From NCBI RefSeq assembly GCF_900184685.1, contig NZ_FXXL01000007.1, forward strand, positions 1,860,001 through 1,924,000: DNA of 64,000 nucleotides, read 5' to 3'. Shown one piece after another: positions 19,636 through 25,514 of this stretch. Each line of letters starts with the position of its first letter. Positions within the stretch are counted from its first letter, which is position 1. Below the pieces are notes generated by a model. That model searched no databases. It was not told where the DNA came from and saw only the letters and a list, made by a program, of their open reading frames with translations. The DNA is from Butyricimonas sp. Marseille-P3923 (lineage in GTDB: Bacteria > Bacteroidota > Bacteroidia > Bacteroidales > Marinifilaceae). A program made the translations under genes and the position numbers.

Positions 19636-19742
19636 TTAAGATTTAAGATTTAAGATTTACGATTTATGATTAAAATATTAGTTCATGAAAAATTGAGAAA
19701 TTCCTCAATCAAAAATCTTCAATCATAAATCATCAATTAATC
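19636..19742. repeat. AT-rich repeat between hisB and hisH
   Basis: The tract starts with AAGATTT triple units and a GATTTATGATT unit, then the mirrored AATCATAAATCATCAATTAATC. It is the same family as 18242-18352. Confidence 0.6.
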
Positions 19743-20853
19743 AGTCTATTAAACTCTTCGTCGATGGCAACTCTCCCCCGTCCTTCTGTTCCACCGCCAC
19801 ACGCAAGCAACGCCCGAAAGCCTTAAAAATAGCCTCTATCGTGTGATGTGTATTCTCTCCCTTCGCCGTCACATGCAGGTTACACTTTGCCGTCTGGCAA
19901 AAGGAAGCGAAAAAGTGTTTGGTCATCTCTGTCGGGAAATCCCCCACGTACTCCCGGGTAAACGTCGCATTCCATTCCAACCACCCCCGTCCCCCGAAAT
20001 CAAGCAACACCTCCGCTTTCGCCTCATCCATGGGTAAAGCAAAACCGTACCGCCCAATCCCCTTCTTACTCCCCAACGCCTCGGCAAAACAACTCCCTAG
20101 CACGATAGCCGTATCCTCTATCGTGTGATGTTCATCGACCTGCAAGTCCCCCTTCACGGCAACAACCAAATCAATTTCCCCGTGGCGTGCAATCTGTTCC
20201 AACATATGGTCGAAAAAAGCCAATCCCGTCCGTACGTCCCCTTCTCCCGAACCATTCAGGTCAAGCGCAACCTTCACGTCCGTTTCTGCGGTCTTTCTTT
20301 CTTTTACTGCCCGGCGGCTGCCTTTTTTCAAAAAACGAACAATCCTTCCCCAAGAACCAGTACACAAAGCCACGGGTAACCCCTCCGGGACCTCCTCGCC
20401 CAAATAAATTCCCCGTATCCCCATGTTTTTCGCCAACTGCATATCCGTCACCCTATCCCCTATCACGTAAGAATACTCTCGCTCCAACCCATCACCCAAA
20501 TACTTCTCCACCATACCAATTCCCGGTTTTCGACAAGGGGAGCCCTCTTCCGGCATACTCTCGTCAATAAGAATCTCGTCAAACACCACGCCTTCACCCG
20601 CCAACGTCCGTAACATAAACTCATGGGGTGGCAAAAAAGCCTCCATCGGGAAACGCTCCGTCCCCAAGCCATCTTGGTTACTTACCATAACCAACCGATA
20701 ATCCGTATCCCTCGCCAACTCCCGCAAAGCCCCGATAACTCCCGGCACGAATTCCAATTTCGACATATTATCCACTTGAAAATCACCGGGCGGTTCCTTG
20801 ATAATCGTTCCATCCCTATCTATAAACAAAATCTTCTTCATACATCTTGTCAT
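19741..20853 (-). CDS. hisB: Bifunctional histidinol-phosphatase / IGP dehydratase
   Basis: The product has 370 residues. The N-terminal HAD phosphatase (about 1-165) has the DxD nucleophile in 'LFIDRDGTII', the Cys cluster near 'EGSPCRKPG' and 'VIGDRVTDMQLAKN'. The C-terminal IGP dehydratase (about 175-370) has the metal-binding motifs 'FFDHMLEQIARHG', 'DEHHTIEDTAIVLG' and 'NTHHTIEAIFKAFGRCL'. It does the dehydratase and phosphatase steps, so no separate hisN is needed. The ATG at 20853 overlaps the hisC stop as ATGA; 20841 (MKKILFID) is an alternative. Confidence 0.96.
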   Translation of the reverse strand: MTRCMKKILFIDRDGTIIKEPPGDFQVDNMSKLEFVPGVIGALRELARDTDYRLVMVSNQDGLGTERFPMEAFLPPHEFMLRTLAGEGVVFDEILIDESMPEEGSPCRKPGIGMVEKYLGDGLEREYSYVIGDRVTDMQLAKNMGIRGIYLGEEVPEGLPVALCTGSWGRIVRFLKKGSRRAVKERKTAETDVKVALDLNGSGEGDVRTGLAFFDHMLEQIARHGEIDLVVAVKGDLQVDEHHTIEDTAIVLGSCFAEALGSKKGIGRYGFALPMDEAKAEVLLDFGGRGWLEWNATFTREYVGDFPTEMTKHFFASFCQTAKCNLHVTAKGENTHHTIEAIFKAFGRCLRVAVEQKDGGELPSTKSLID

Positions 20854-21887
20854 CTAAAATCCTTTAATACCCGAATCAATAAATCATTCTCCTCCCTCGT
20901 CCCAATCGTGACGCGTAAGCCCCCCTCCAACCGGGGCGGAATATGCCGCACCCGGACAACCAGCCCGTGAGCCAACAAATAATCATACACTTCCCGATAA
21001 CGAGGCGTACACGCGAGTAAGAAATTCGCCTCCGAATCATACACCCGCTCAAAACACGCCATACCCCGCAATGCCACAAACACCCGCTCCCTCTCCCGTT
21101 TGATTTCCTCGACTCTCTCCCGGAACAAATCCACGTTCTTCAACGCCTCCAACGCCATTCGTTGCGTCACCGAACCGATATTATAAGGCGGCTTTACCTT
21201 ATTCAGATACTTCACCAATCCCGGTTCCGCCATACATATCCCTACACGCAATCCCGCCAGTCCCCACGCTTTCGACAACGTCTGCAACACCACGACATTC
21301 GGGCACTCTCCCCGTAAACTTGTTGCCGACGGCACATCCGCGAAGTCGATATACGCCTCATCGACCACTACCAACCCGTCAAACCGCAACGCAACTCGCC
21401 GAATCTCATCCAAGGGAATGACATTCCCCACCGGATTATTCGGGGTACAAAAGAAAATAATCTTTGTCCGTTCATCCACCCGCTCAAAGATACGCTCCCA
21501 TTCCGGCATAAAATCATCGTCCAGCACCAAGTTCCGCACCTCCGTGCCATTCACCCGGGCGCTCACCTCGTACATCGAATACCCCGGAGAAAACACGATT
21601 ATATTATCCCGTCCCGGTACACAAACCGTCCGTATCAACATATCAATCAACTCGTCACTCCCGTTCCCCAACACCAACCGTGACACATCCCCCCCCTTCA
21701 ACCGGGCAATCTGCTGTTTCAGTTCCCGCTGATACGGGTCCGGATAACGGTTATATTCCGACGCGAACGGATTCTCATTCGCGTCCAACAACACCGCCCC
21801 CGCTCCCTCGAACTCCCCGCGGGCACAAGAGTACGCCTCCAGTTCCCGTATATTCTCTCTTACCAAATTCTCAAACTCCATTTTCAT
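20850..21887 (-). CDS. hisC: Histidinol-phosphate aminotransferase
   Basis: The 345-residue fold type I PLP enzyme contains 'LDANENPF', 'NRYPDPYQRELK', 'LGNGSDELIDML', 'FCTPNNPVGN' and 'VVVDEAYIDF'. The PLP lysine is in 'TLSKAWGLAGLRVG', and the substrate-binding 'RHIPPRLEGGLRVTIGT' is near the end. It transaminates imidazole acetol phosphate with glutamate. The start is 21887 or 21881. A large palindromic spacer separates it from hisD. Confidence 0.97.
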   Translation of the reverse strand: MKMEFENLVRENIRELEAYSCARGEFEGAGAVLLDANENPFASEYNRYPDPYQRELKQQIARLKGGDVSRLVLGNGSDELIDMLIRTVCVPGRDNIIVFSPGYSMYEVSARVNGTEVRNLVLDDDFMPEWERIFERVDERTKIIFFCTPNNPVGNVIPLDEIRRVALRFDGLVVVDEAYIDFADVPSATSLRGECPNVVVLQTLSKAWGLAGLRVGICMAEPGLVKYLNKVKPPYNIGSVTQRMALEALKNVDLFRERVEEIKRERERVFVALRGMACFERVYDSEANFLLACTPRYREVYDYLLAHGLVVRVRHIPPRLEGGLRVTIGTREENDLLIRVLKDFR

Positions 21888-21892
21888 GTTTG

Positions 21893-22030
21893 TTTATAAA
21901 GTTTATAATGTTCGTAAAGTTTATAAAGTATTCCGGCAGCCTCGCTGCCGAGAACAAAGTCCCCATACAGCCCATAAACCTCATAAATCTTATGAACTTT
22001 ATGAACCTTATGAACTTTATAAACCTTACA
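21893..22030. repeat. Large palindromic repeat between hisD and hisC
   Basis: TTTATAAAGTTTATAATGTTCGTAAAG-like units on the left are mirrored by CTTTATGAACCTTATGAACTTTATAAACC on the right. In the middle is a GC hairpin, CGGCAGC/GCTGCCG, near 21932-21949. The same family occurs at 55,590, 63,740 and, degraded, at 14,570. Confidence 0.7.
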
Positions 22031-23306
22031 AACTTTCAACTCGAACCCTTACCGCATTCCCGTGCGCCGTCAAATTCTCGTTATCAGCCATCATCTCTAT
22101 CGTCTTCCCCAGATAAGCCAATCCCTCCGGGCGAATCTCTTGAAAACTAATCTTCTTCATAAAAGAATCTACCCCGACACCGCTATACGCCCGTGCATAC
22201 CCGTTCGTCGGCAACGTGTGATTCGTCCCCGAAGCATAATCCCCCGCACTCTCCGTCGAATAATTTCCCAAGAAAACAGAACCAGCATTCCGTATCCGCG
22301 GCACCCACGCCATGTAATCCTCCACACACAACATCAAGTGTTCCGGGGCATAAAGATTCGCCATCTCCACGCACTCCTCCCGACTGTTCAACACCACGTA
22401 CTTCGAACATTTCAACGCCATCTCCGCTATCGCCTTACGGGGCAATCTATCCAATTGCTCCCGCAACTCTCTTTCCACCTCTTCCACCAACCTCTCCACG
22501 CAAGTAACAAGCACCACCTGACTATCCGGGCCGTGTTCCGCCTGCGATAACAAATCCGCCGCCACAAAACGGGGACAGGCAGTTTCATCCGCCACAATCA
22601 TTAATTCCGACGGACCAGCCGGCATATCAATCGCCACCCCGTAACGCCCGACCATTTGTTTAGCCGCCGTCACGAAACGATTGCCCGGTCCGAAAATCTT
22701 ATCTACCCGAGGTATCGTCCCCGTCCCCAACGTCAAAGCGGCAATCGCCTGAATCCCCCCAACTTTATATACCCGACTCACGCCACAAAGCCTTGCCGTC
22801 CACAAAATCACCGGATTCACCCGTCCATCCTCTCCCGGCGGCGTACAAATCACAACCTCCCGACACCCGGCAATACGCGCAGGTATAGCCAACATCAACA
22901 CGGTCGAGAACAACGGCGCACTTCCTCCCGGCACATACAACCCCACACGCTCTATCGCTCTCGCCTCCTGCCAACAACGAAAACCGTTCGCATTCACGTA
23001 TTCATTAATACCCGGCAATTGCACCTCGTGAAACCGTTCTATATTCGCCTGCGCCACACCGATAGCCTCTTTCAAATCCACGGCTACCTCCCGGTCAGCA
23101 GCTTCAAACTCTTCGTTCGTTACCTCAAAATCAGCCATCTTCACCCTATCGAAATACCACGTGTACTTCTTCAACGCCTCATCCCCATCACGAGCCACCT
23201 CATCAAACACCGCCCGACACACCTTTTCCAAATCCTCTCCCTTATTTACCGGACGTTCCAAAACCTTCGCCCAATCTTCTCTTTTCGGATATAATATCTT
23301 ATTCAT
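22026..23306 (-). CDS. hisD: Histidinol dehydrogenase
   Basis: The 426-residue zinc enzyme contains 'PGGSAPLFSTVLMLAIPARIAG', 'GGIQAIAALTLGT', 'DKIFGPGNRFVTAAKQ', 'DMPAGPSELMIVADE' and the metal-ligand region 'AEHGPDSQ'. The C-terminal 'YASGTNHTLPTNGYARAYSGV' is also standard. It oxidises histidinol to histidine with two NAD+ and catalyses the final steps. It lies second in the operon, 82 bases after hisG, across another AT-rich spacer. Confidence 0.97.
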   Translation of the reverse strand: MNKILYPKREDWAKVLERPVNKGEDLEKVCRAVFDEVARDGDEALKKYTWYFDRVKMADFEVTNEEFEAADREVAVDLKEAIGVAQANIERFHEVQLPGINEYVNANGFRCWQEARAIERVGLYVPGGSAPLFSTVLMLAIPARIAGCREVVICTPPGEDGRVNPVILWTARLCGVSRVYKVGGIQAIAALTLGTGTIPRVDKIFGPGNRFVTAAKQMVGRYGVAIDMPAGPSELMIVADETACPRFVAADLLSQAEHGPDSQVVLVTCVERLVEEVERELREQLDRLPRKAIAEMALKCSKYVVLNSREECVEMANLYAPEHLMLCVEDYMAWVPRIRNAGSVFLGNYSTESAGDYASGTNHTLPTNGYARAYSGVGVDSFMKKISFQEIRPEGLAYLGKTIEMMADNENLTAHGNAVRVRVESL

Positions 23307-23354: not shown

Positions 23355-23395
23355 TGGAATCTAAAATCTAAAATCATCAAATCTAAAATCACTCT
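23355..23395. repeat. AT-rich repeat between hisG and hisD
   Basis: Several AATCTAAAATC units belong to the same AAATCTTAAATC family found at three other places. The tract runs into the 3' end of hisG. Confidence 0.55.
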
Positions 23396-24252
23396 ATCAT
23401 TTTTTCAATCGGCACCACCAGTATCCCCTCCGCTCCCGCGGCACGCAAGGCTCCTATCGACTCCCAAAACCGATTCTCGTTCACCACCGAATGAAGCGAG
23501 TACCACCCCTTCATCCTCAACGGCATCACGGTCGGACTTTTCACCCCCGGTAACACCCTGCAAATCTCTTCCAACTTATCCTCCGGAGCGTTCAACAAAA
23601 TATACTTGTTACATTTCGCCGCCAACACCGCTTTAATCCGAAACATCAATTGCTCCAACAACGTCCGTTTCTCCTCGTCCAAATTCGGGTTCGCCACCAA
23701 AACAGCAGTAGACTTGAATAACGTGTAAACCTCCGTCAACCCGTTTTTGAAAAGCGTACTCCCCGAACTCACGATATCACAAATCGCATCCGCCAACCCA
23801 ATCCCCGGCGCAATCTCCACCGACCCTGTAATCACGTGAGTCTCTGCCTGTATGTTATTCTGCTGTAAAAAATCATTCAATGTATTCGGGTACGACGTCG
23901 CAATCTTCTTCCCCTGCAACCACTCCAATCCCGTGAACTCCTCCGACTTCGGAATCGCTATCGACACCCGACACCCGGAAAAGCCCAAATCCAACAACTT
24001 CAATACATTCGCCCGTTTCTCTATTATCGTGTTCTCCCCGATAATCGCCACGTCAACCACCCCATCCTCCACGTAATGAGGGATATCCGAATTTCGTAAA
24101 TAAAGCACCTCCAACGGGAAATTAGAGGCCTGTGCCATCAACTGCTCTTTTCCGTTATTAATGGAAATACCACACTCTTTCAACAATTCGAGGGAATCCT
24201 CGTTCAAACGTCCTGACTTCTGAATCGCGACTTTCAATTTTACCATCTTCAT
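23389..24252 (-). CDS. hisG: ATP phosphoribosyltransferase, long form
   Basis: The 287-residue product is the long form. The catalytic domains include 'VAIQKSGRLNEDSLELL', 'DVAIIGENTI' and the PRPP site 'CDIVSSGSTLFKNGL'. The C-terminal ACT-like regulatory domain (about 215-287) contains 'LPGVKSPTVMPLR', the histidine feedback site in relatives. It commits ATP and PRPP to histidine synthesis. It is the first structural gene after the leader and attenuator; 24246 is an alternative start. Confidence 0.97.
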   Translation of the reverse strand: MKMVKLKVAIQKSGRLNEDSLELLKECGISINNGKEQLMAQASNFPLEVLYLRNSDIPHYVEDGVVDVAIIGENTIIEKRANVLKLLDLGFSGCRVSIAIPKSEEFTGLEWLQGKKIATSYPNTLNDFLQQNNIQAETHVITGSVEIAPGIGLADAICDIVSSGSTLFKNGLTEVYTLFKSTAVLVANPNLDEEKRTLLEQLMFRIKAVLAAKCNKYILLNAPEDKLEEICRVLPGVKSPTVMPLRMKGWYSLHSVVNENRFWESIGALRAAGAEGILVVPIEKMIE

Positions 24253-24300
24253 TTGATTTTATCGTCGCTCTGAATCCGGAAAGGCTATGTATGATATCGA

Positions 24301-24341
24301 AAAAAACAAAACGAGCCCGCCTGATTCAGGCGAGCTCGTTT
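24301..24341 (-). terminator. his attenuator terminator
   Basis: On the minus strand a 16-pair stem (24326-24341 with 24309-24324, one G-U, tiny loop) is followed by TTTTGTTTTTT. It lies between the leader peptide and hisG, so it must be read through for the operon to be expressed. Confidence 0.92.
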
Positions 24342-24413
24342 ATACTTTCTTTATCTCTAATTACAGCACAACAGCATCATCTCACCTGAAAACAGTGATG
24401 GCAATGATGATGC
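24325..24413 (-). promoter_or_regulatory. his attenuator: antiterminator and pre-emptor pairings
   Basis: Segment 24381-24390 (RNA UUCAGGUGAG) can pair over 10 bases with 24325-24334 (CUCGCCUGAA), which is the 5' arm of the terminator. Segment 24374-24381 (GAUGAUGC) can pair with the histidine codons at 24406-24413 (GCAUCAUC). A ribosome stalled on His codons would block the second pairing and free the antiterminator. This is the classical amino-acid attenuation logic, read directly from sequence. Confidence 0.85.
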
Positions 24414-24436
24414 ATATGATGTAACGTACTATTCAT
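24377..24436 (-). CDS. hisL: his operon leader peptide
   Basis: A 19-residue open frame, MNSTLHHMHHHCHHCFQVR, contains seven histidines within ten codons (residues 6-14). It starts about 15 bases after the predicted transcript start and ends in TGA before the attenuator hairpins. Its role is to sense charged tRNA-His by ribosome stalling. It is far too short to be found by length-based gene calling. Confidence 0.92.
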   Translation of the reverse strand: MNSTLHHMHHHCHHCFQVR

Positions 24437-24457
24437 ATTTTTGTCTTTTTCGTGCTG

Positions 24458-24488
24458 CAAATATAAGAACTAAAAATTATTCCGCAAA
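24458..24488 (-). promoter_or_regulatory. his operon promoter
   Basis: On the minus strand, TTTG (24485-24488), a 19-base spacer and TATATTTG (24458-24465) match both Bacteroidota elements. The -33 element lies inside the last codons of the upstream lipoprotein gene. Confidence 0.85.
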
Positions 24489-25514
24489 TTTCTGCATGAA
24501 TTTTTCAACTGACTGAGGCAATACCATTACTGCTGGTGCAGGAACTTCTTCTACATAAGGAACTAGATGCAAACCGATTTCGGTTTCATTGCTATTCTCA
24601 ATAAGATCTACTATCATTGTCACCATTGAAGTCGCAAGTTCTTTGTATTCTCCTAACTGTTCCCCAAAACTTTCCAATAAAGAAGGTAGCATTTTCACGA
24701 CAGGTAGCATCATTTCTTTATTTACATATATATCAACACCATCATCTGTCTTTCTCATCAACAAAGGTAATCCCTCATTTGCAGCAGCAGCCAATTGAAG
24801 CAAAGGATTCACCGATTCTGCACGCCCAACATTAGATTGCTTAGGAGAAGTTGCATCAGCAATAATTCCATTAATATTTAAAGCAATGTACAATTTATTA
24901 TCAACAACATTATATAATGCCATTCCTTCAGGCGAATCTCCATAGATAGGAGTTCCACTAGTTAACAATTCATCTATATTTGTCACATATCGAGCAATAA
25001 TATTACCATCATCCTTTAACGTCAACTGCGGCAACATCACCGGAAGTAACTGTCCTATATTACCAATAAATTCTTTAAAATCGTCTATCGGCATCGGACT
25101 TCCTAAAAAATCAACGGACTCTTGATCCGTATCCAAATTAAAAACTAAAGAAGTAACACTCCATTTAGCCGTCATTGAAGATTTCATCTTCGCTATCAAA
25201 TTCAAACTCAACTTATCTCCGCTAATAGTTCCATCAAGAGTTACTTCCCGATTTGTATTAGTATTATTACCCATAATCTTATCCCCTGCACGAGTGACTG
25301 CAAACACTGTTTCAGCCTCTCCCGGCAATGCTTTTTTCACTGTCAAAACTGCACCATCCAAAACAGCCTCTTTACCCGAAAGAACAAAATCACCAAGAGA
25401 AAGAGATAAATTTTCTCCGTTGTAAGTTACTGCTTTCTTATCATCATCGTCATCACTACAAGCAGTAAATAATGCCATCCCTAAAATCAACAACCATAAA
25501 AACCGATTTTTCAT
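24477..25514 (-). CDS. DUF4925-like lipoprotein A
   Basis: The 345-residue lipoprotein has a signal ending 'GMALFTAC' and the mature start CSDDDDDKK, an acidic run of the kind that directs lipoproteins to the cell surface in this phylum. An N-terminal beta-rich domain of about 100 residues is followed by a helical domain with 'LLPVMLPQLTLKDDGNIIARY'. The second domain pattern ('LYIALNINGIIADA') is shared with the divergent protein B at 25851. I take the family to be DUF4925 by memory of its layout; the function is unknown. Its last codons contain the his promoter. Confidence 0.7.
   Translation of the reverse strand: MKNRFLWLLILGMALFTACSDDDDDKKAVTYNGENLSLSLGDFVLSGKEAVLDGAVLTVKKALPGEAETVFAVTRAGDKIMGNNTNTNREVTLDGTISGDKLSLNLIAKMKSSMTAKWSVTSLVFNLDTDQESVDFLGSPMPIDDFKEFIGNIGQLLPVMLPQLTLKDDGNIIARYVTNIDELLTSGTPIYGDSPEGMALYNVVDNKLYIALNINGIIADATSPKQSNVGRAESVNPLLQLAAAANEGLPLLMRKTDDGVDIYVNKEMMLPVVKMLPSLLESFGEQLGEYKELATSMVTMIVDLIENSNETEIGLHLVPYVEEVPAPAVMVLPQSVEKFMQKFAE

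Follow-up and report, generated by a model that had tools for sequence, protein, structure and literature searches.

The his attenuators of Escherichia coli and Salmonella combine a leader peptide with His codons, alternative RNA helices and a terminator placed before hisG, with the translating ribosome as sensor, and the E. coli trp attenuator works through four segments that pair as 1:2, 2:3 or 3:4. For the Bacteroidota, precedents are fewer. According to the openly available texts, leader genes have been surveyed at large, in a paper that cites Lopatovskaya 2010 (PMC4833913); Bacteroid-trp (RF01692) is a cis-regulatory candidate in Bacteroidetes (PMC2864571); and long 5' UTRs of Bacteroides thetaiotaomicron contain short ORFs reminiscent of leader peptides (PMC7366714). 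In 2021, clues to leader-peptide attenuation were described before amino-acid operons of Flavobacterium psychrophilum, where an element 5' of hisG is conserved in other Flavobacteriaceae genera and has no Rfam hit (PMC9723704). The element analyzed here shares its position, its conservation and its lack of an Rfam match, while the hisG section of the main text of that paper is silent on mechanism and anatomy, on any spread outside the family and on a downstream segment (PMC9723704). It is the one direct precedent in the openly available main texts that we searched. A first reading of our locus, made from the sequence only, had called such control little studied in this phylum; given the flavobacterial element and Bacteroid-trp, it is not wholly new (PMC9723704; PMC2864571).

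The window, by which we mean the whole stretch of 64,000 nucleotides that was analyzed, is part of a 5.3-Mb genome, and among the loci fetched the nearest named hisG, 95% identical to that of the window, belongs to Butyricimonas synergistica. The operon runs in the order hisG, hisD, hisC and hisB, all on the minus strand, and the leader lies 5' of hisG on the same strand (Table 1). The sequence-only reading had placed the attenuator at the right coordinates and had left out its strand, which is minus.

Table 1. Features of the his operon and its leader in the window (position 1 is the first letter of the window).
Feature	Coordinates	Strand	Evidence or detail
hisG	23389..24252	-	TIGR00070, TIGR03455
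hisD	22026..23306	-	TIGR00069
hisC	20850..21887	-	TIGR01141
hisB, bifunctional	19741..20853	-	NF003937
-33 element TTTG	24488-24485	-	sequence; Bacteroidota-type promoter TTTG-N19-TAnnTTTG
-7 element TATATTTG	24465-24458	-	sequence; spacer to -33 element is 19
Leader ORF MNSTLHHMHHHCHHCFQVR, then stop	24436-24377	-	19 codons, 7 His; frame conserved among relatives
Segment 1 (His codons), partner of segment 2	24400..24425	-	MFE fold; core probability 0.99 without ribosome
1:2 core, 8 bp	GCATCATC 24413-24406 with GATGATGC 24381-24374	-	sequence, fold
Segment 2, antiterminator 5' strand	24381..24390	-	in last leader codons; sequence, fold, relatives
Antiterminator 2:3, 10 bp	TTCAGGTGAG 24390-24381 with CTCGCCTGAA 24334-24325	-	sequence, fold
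TTGTGCT, 5' strand of second antiterminator helix	24365..24371	-	fold; paired in 88.8% of cells across 15 relatives
AGTATAA, partner of TTGTGCT	24340..24346	-	fold, close alignment
Segment 3, common to antiterminator, terminator and segment 5 pairing	24325..24334	-	fold, close alignment
Intrinsic terminator hairpin 3:4	24341-24309	-	15 pairs, loop AAT (3 nt), then tail TGTTTTTT
Segment 5, interrupted complement of terminator apex 24334-24316	24265..24285	-	duplex -20.5 kcal/mol

The leader is preceded by TTTG-N19-TATATTTG, a predicted promoter that matches the Bacteroidota consensus TTTG/TAnnTTTG. The motif is enriched before the leaders of relatives: among 211 leaders, 136 have TAnnTT(T/C)G in the 70 nt before their start (20.2 in shuffles), and 94 have it together with TTG 17-23 nt farther upstream (2.8 in shuffles). 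A sigma-70 scan of the window did not list the his leader promoter, which is of another type. The leader ORF encodes a 19-residue peptide with seven His, in agreement with the sequence-only reading, and the His codons are interspersed, the early ones being codons 6, 7, 9, 10 and 11, followed by 13. Across the 211 leaders, CAT occurs 870 times and CAC 157 times, and both are used in 109, which is what a coding constraint, rather than a purely RNA one, would lead one to expect. Since the choice of leaders favored ATG starts, the 209 ATG starts among the 211 are not independent evidence.

The 140-nt leader RNA folds at -49.9 kcal/mol, compared to -29.7 +/- 3.3 kcal/mol when shuffled (z -6.1), and none of 200 shuffles was as low. 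The 8-bp pairing of the His codons and the 10-bp antiterminator, both proposed before, were located at exactly those lengths, and the antiterminator energy in the window was equaled by 11 of 2000 shuffles. The terminator hairpin and its T run were likewise found, although the hairpin has 15 pairs and not the 16 first counted, since a 16th would leave a loop of 1 nt. By sequence, the 1:2, 2:3 and 3:4 helices are mutually exclusive. Two elements were absent from the sequence-only reading: segment 5, downstream of the terminator, and a TTGTGCT:AGTATAA helix that extends the antiterminator in the fold, in which no pair changed on both sides in an alignment of 15 relatives.

We infer an order of events that includes stalling, an effect on termination and a response to histidine. 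RNA polymerase would initiate at the TTTG/TAnnTTTG promoter, after which a ribosome would begin the His-rich leader. When His-tRNA is ample, the ribosome would reach the stop codon and mask segment 2, so that 3:4 forms and transcription terminates before hisG, giving a short leader RNA predicted to extend from about 24450 to about 24302. When His-tRNA is scarce, the ribosome would stall at an early His codon (6, 7, 9, 10 or 11, and less well 13) with segment 1 masked, leaving segment 2 free to pair with segment 3, and hisGDCB would be transcribed. Without translation of the leader, 1:2 would form and transcription would end.

We modeled the ribosome with an assumed cover of 13 nt downstream from the start of the A-site codon, on RNA synthesized as far as the terminator loop. 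The predicted antiterminator probability was 0.94-0.95 for a ribosome with His codon 6, 7, 9, 10 or 11 in its A site; it was 0.65 on codon 13 and 0 from codon 14 onward, while the fold without a ribosome gave 1:2 at 0.99 and the antiterminator at 0. Modeled stalls at codons 5, 8 and 12 were as effective as those at His codons (0.93-0.95), so specificity must lie in codon identity. At equilibrium, folds of the full-length RNA always favor the terminator (0.94-0.97), and antitermination must therefore be kinetic, with the choice made during transcription. The locus has the parts of a ribosome-dependent attenuator, namely a short His-rich leader ORF, an intrinsic terminator before the first structural gene and an antiterminator that excludes the terminator and, in the model, is free under a stall at the regulatory codons.

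The sequence-only reading had equated this with enterobacterial his attenuation, which holds for the logic, while the parts form a simpler, trp-like layout of four segments. Compared to the his attenuator of E. coli and Salmonella, the window has no Rfam match at threshold, interspersed His codons, a Bacteroidota promoter and four segments; its antiterminator strand lies in the last leader codons, and a segment 5 occurs in many relatives. The E. coli trp attenuator has the same four-segment logic as the window, and differs in the amino acid, in the position of segment 2, which here falls within the last leader codons, and in segment 5.

Relatives were sampled as 327 loci (58 from searches of the own genome, order and family, 80 named, 120 further stretches, a phylum sample of 29, and 40 chosen from it). 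This set is not random, since the lists were ranked by hisG similarity and the named set is the best 80. Genomes without a hisG match numbered 147 of 294 in the order, 12 of 56 in the family and 34 of 247 in the phylum, and of the hisG-matching genomes 11 of 147 in the order and about 140 of 213 in the phylum were left out of the later steps. Defining a His-cluster ORF by an ATG start, 6-40 aa, at least 3 His in 8 residues and a position within 250 nt upstream of hisG, we found one in 261 of 317 non-redundant loci, compared to 4.8 (at most 9) in dinucleotide shuffles, 3 in the reverse complement and 15 in the reversed sequence. Clusters of at least 4 His in 8 were present in 221 of the 317, with 0 in 10 shuffled sets, 1 in the reverse complement and 4 in the reversed sequence.

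A leader followed by a terminator was found in 258 of the 320 loci for which 200 nt or more of upstream sequence was available, a count that omits the repeat leaders L059-L063 and two short loci, and 62 of the 320 were without the pair. By group, the pair was present in 6/6 loci of the window's own genus, 37/38 of the remaining family, 108/133 of the remaining order, 66/74 of the other named loci, 27/29 of the phylum sample and 4/10 of the others. By hisG identity, it was seen in 10 of 22 loci at 41-48% and in 0 of 8 near 30%. Some of these misses are probably leaders under the threshold: by eye, L097 and L125 each have a His-Thr-His leader, the clear leader of L152 is followed by an imperfect terminator, and several loci at 41-48% hisG identity have His-rich ORFs, mostly with GTG starts. 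In L051 there are two tandem His-rich leaders with terminators, at about -372 and -180 from hisG, and L023 and L167 have a second His-rich ORF farther upstream.

The antiterminator recurs less uniformly. Among 252 leaders with terminators, 140 have a 2:3 helix with 9 pairs or more when one mismatch is allowed, compared to 27.6 for shuffled leaders and 54.1 for unrelated arms; at 10 pairs or more the counts were 85, 7.2 and 22.8. The sequence-only reading had staked its case on the conservation of the His-rich frame and the pairings in relatives, and the case withstood the comparison on these counts for the frame and for 2:3. The helix starts within the leader ORF in 118 of the 140, mostly in the last codons, and many of the leaders in relatives end in QVR or QAR, which can be explained by the last codons doubling as the antiterminator RNA strand. 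In all 140, 2:3 begins at least 13 nt past the first His codon, so that a ribosome stalled on this codon would not obstruct the helix. By energy, the antiterminator surpassed all 50 shuffles in 96 of 211 loci of an earlier set, and in only 59 did it surpass every one of up to 25 unrelated arms.

In the other 112 of the 252 loci, 2:3 of at least 9 pairs was not found. By arm, these were 35/45 unclassed, 10/17 TTTGCA, 9/11 CTTGCA/CTGCA, 11/47 CTTACC/CTTGCC, 26/89 GTTTGA/GTCTGA and 21/43 CCTG. Loci with TTTGCA or CTTGCA/CTGCA arms, such as L021, L155, L172 and L254, have a His leader and a terminator, and mostly no clear antiterminator helix. Covariation was measured in a close alignment of 15 of 19 prepared stretches (L035, L039, L040 and L041 were excluded, and L152 has no terminator call), which vary little and reach no further than the family. 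There, 1:2 was paired in 87.2% of cells and its covariation score did not exceed that of shuffles (0.094 versus 0.097), although both-side changes were seen at 3 pairs versus 0.9. For 2:3 the excess was slight (0.075 versus 0.059 shuffled), and 3:4 did better than both, with 9 cells changed on both sides versus 3.6 shuffled. The flavobacterial alignment holds 36 of 58 sequences, and its downstream region is poorly aligned, so no pair counts were taken from it.

Many loci also have a segment 5, complementary to the terminator apex, between the terminator and hisG. In the window, its duplex energy with the terminator apex was matched by 7 of 2000 shuffles, and the longest stretch has 9 pairs, which by itself is not rare. 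Of the 146 loci with a spacing of 30-69 nt, 47 have 12 pairs or more, one mismatch being allowed, compared to 1.8 in shuffles and 1.7 in unrelated downstream regions, and a weaker signal was seen at 9 or more pairs (91 versus 27.8 and 27.7). Taking one locus per distinct apex type, 27 of 100 had at least 12 pairs versus 0.8 shuffled. The pairing energy lay in the best 5% against swapped regions in 35/37 loci of the window's family, 40/70 of flavobacterial type and 22/76 of the rest; in those remaining 76 the median rank was 0.44, meaning no signal in most. With the match anchored on the arm only, 215 of 348 loop positions paired with segment 5 versus 170.9 +/- 6.8 when swapped, and the whole loop was paired in 27 of 83. 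In 80 loci selected for having 10 pairs or more, coverage centers on the loop (0.99) and is about 0.9 for the innermost bases of segments 3 and 4. Ten of the 11 trp and phe leaders described below were compared, and 0 of 10 had 9 pairs or more; their spacers are mostly short (13-32 nt, one 60). We found no description of such an element in the openly available main texts searched, and segment 5 is new as far as those searches show.

Since segment 5 is transcribed after the terminator, it should not decide the termination of its own transcript. Lying 5' of hisG, it could pair with the terminator apex in read-through mRNA or with the released leader RNA. Our best guess, far less certain than attenuation, is that it tunes how hisG is translated, be it in cis or in trans. 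Somewhat short of an even bet, we suggest that many Bacteroidota his leaders are three-way switches, in which segment 3 and the loop can be taken by segment 2 for read-through, by segment 4 for termination or by segment 5, the last coupling attenuation to hisG translation by either route.

The cis route, on which segment 5 of the read-through mRNA is a competitor for segment 3 and the loop and thereby sets hisG translation, is the stronger of the specific readings and still on the unlikely side. It fits the overlap between the targets of segments 5 and 2, and the position of segment 5: in the 87 loci with 10 pairs or more, the median distance from its 3' end to hisG is 12 nt (quartiles 9-17). 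It also fits the near absence of segment 5 where the terminator is less than 30 nt from hisG (9 or more pairs in 4 of 89), a figure that partly reflects the shorter sequence available there. With the apex:5 fold forced, 26 of 80 loci stayed no more than 3 kcal/mol above their best fold, although the median cost was 5.1 kcal/mol. Against it, the predicted opening of the hisG start is nearly equal between states (0.53 versus 0.55, 81 loci), and apex:5 opens the region from -12 to +12 more, not less (0.69 versus 0.59 with the terminator), so folding does not support a simple lock on the hisG start.

Direct pairing of segment 5 with the hisG start was also considered and occurs in some flavobacterial loci, while overall it is only modestly above swaps: in 148 loci, the observed and swapped counts were 63 and 54.4 at 9 pairs, 41 and 28.1 at 10, 22 and 14.4 at 11, and 15 and 6.7 at 12. 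Six loci (L003, L014, L015, L192, L276 and L283) have a terminator loop similar to the hisG start (TGAGTAAA or TGAGTAT, compare ATGAGTAAA), which allows their segment 5 to pair with the region of the start codon too; this is not general. In L141, L144, L145, L057 and L140, a stretch of ACCCATGAT type located 5' of segment 5 pairs with the hisG start region (ATCATGGGT) over 9 to 11 pairs.

Attenuators can also give rise to RNAs that act in trans, as with rnTrpL. The terminated his leader RNA could similarly act as an antisense RNA on the mRNA of its own operon through segment 5, and the complementarity is centered on the terminator loop, which the finished hairpin exposes. Rli51 is described as a trans-acting RNA derived from an attenuator in the available text (PMC11394854). 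Nevertheless, cis pairing accounts for the same complementarity and 66 of the 146 suitably spaced loci lack 10 pairs, and we regard the trans route as less probable than the cis route.

That segment 5 is instead the decayed copy of a duplicated terminator is highly improbable. The tandem leader and terminator in L051 are in keeping with duplication, but stretches with 8 or more matches (one mismatch allowed, Watson-Crick only) are far more frequent in reverse complement (63/148) than in direct orientation (13/148), and the loop bases covary with segment 5 as described above. A weaker indication is that the loop with 3 bases on each side is at least 80% exact in only 3 of 148 loci (0 direct). 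A direct terminator copy was therefore rejected, since the matches are complementary.

Two further alternatives concern attenuation itself. A lipoprotein-like ORF (24477-25514, minus strand) is unmatched in NCBIfam at E 0.001. Its end falls within the his promoter region, and the his terminator may also stop its transcript. That the hairpin is a mere terminator of this gene and the His ORF incidental is very improbable: the ORF ends 136 nt before the terminator and the scan gave no minus-strand terminator-like site between them, but the His ORF and terminator occur together before hisG in 258 of 320 loci and clusters of at least 4 His in 8 never arose in shuffles.

A riboswitch or T box that senses histidine or tRNA directly, for which translation would not be needed, could likewise have a structured 5' leader with a terminator. 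T boxes of his genes are named for Firmicutes and Actinobacteria in the available text (PMC9413887). At the Rfam gathering score, the window has only three matches, all tRNAs elsewhere and none at the leader, and there was none in 20 loci (13 his, including the window's own, and 7 trpE). The best weak match at the leader is Thr_leader, with 26.3 bits compared to a threshold of 55. The His_leader model, which we take to be RF00514, had no match in the window, none to E 10 in 24200-24560 and none in the 13 his loci, and the T-box model had none in the window, nor to E 10 in 24200-24560. We dropped direct sensing, which is no more probable than an upstream terminator, on the strength of these Rfam results and of the mixing of CAT and CAC with the frame kept. 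Ribosome-mediated transcription attenuation is thus our reading of the window's his leader, with a probability of about 0.9, a figure that leaves the role of segment 5 aside. Judged by these sequence tests, it is very likely a genuine attenuator, widespread in the phylum and partly foreshadowed in print.

Attenuation is probably not confined to his in the class. Leaders with at least two Trp codons precede trpE in 8 of 11 strongly matching loci (25 fetched), with two or three Trp codons each (L338-L340, L342-L344, L346 and L356), and Phe-rich leaders precede pheA in 3 of 9 loci (L332, L334 and L335, with Phe runs). All of these trpE and pheA leaders are followed, by eye, by T-tailed hairpins, while ilvD had a leader candidate in 1 of the 8 loci examined (11 fetched). 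Bacteroid-trp gave no gathering-score match at the his leader or at the 7 trpE loci; it resembles the present case as a Bacteroidetes cis-regulator, and the trpE loci here have Trp-codon leaders. In the window's own genome, pheA (PF00800), the N-terminal part of trpE (PF04715) and ilvD (TIGR00110) were unmatched at E 0.001 while the his genes are present, and the organism may be auxotrophic for several amino acids.

Members of this phylum naturally lack Shine-Dalgarno sequences in their mRNA, according to the available texts (PMC6847099; PMC9976891). Our findings indicate that classical attenuation, which requires a ribosome close behind RNA polymerase, is a common form of his control in the phylum, and the his leader would offer a native assay for transcription-translation coupling in Bacteroidota. 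Altogether, these leaders point to a family that goes unrecognized at threshold in the Rfam copy we used, and segment 5 is a testable addition to the textbook mechanism.
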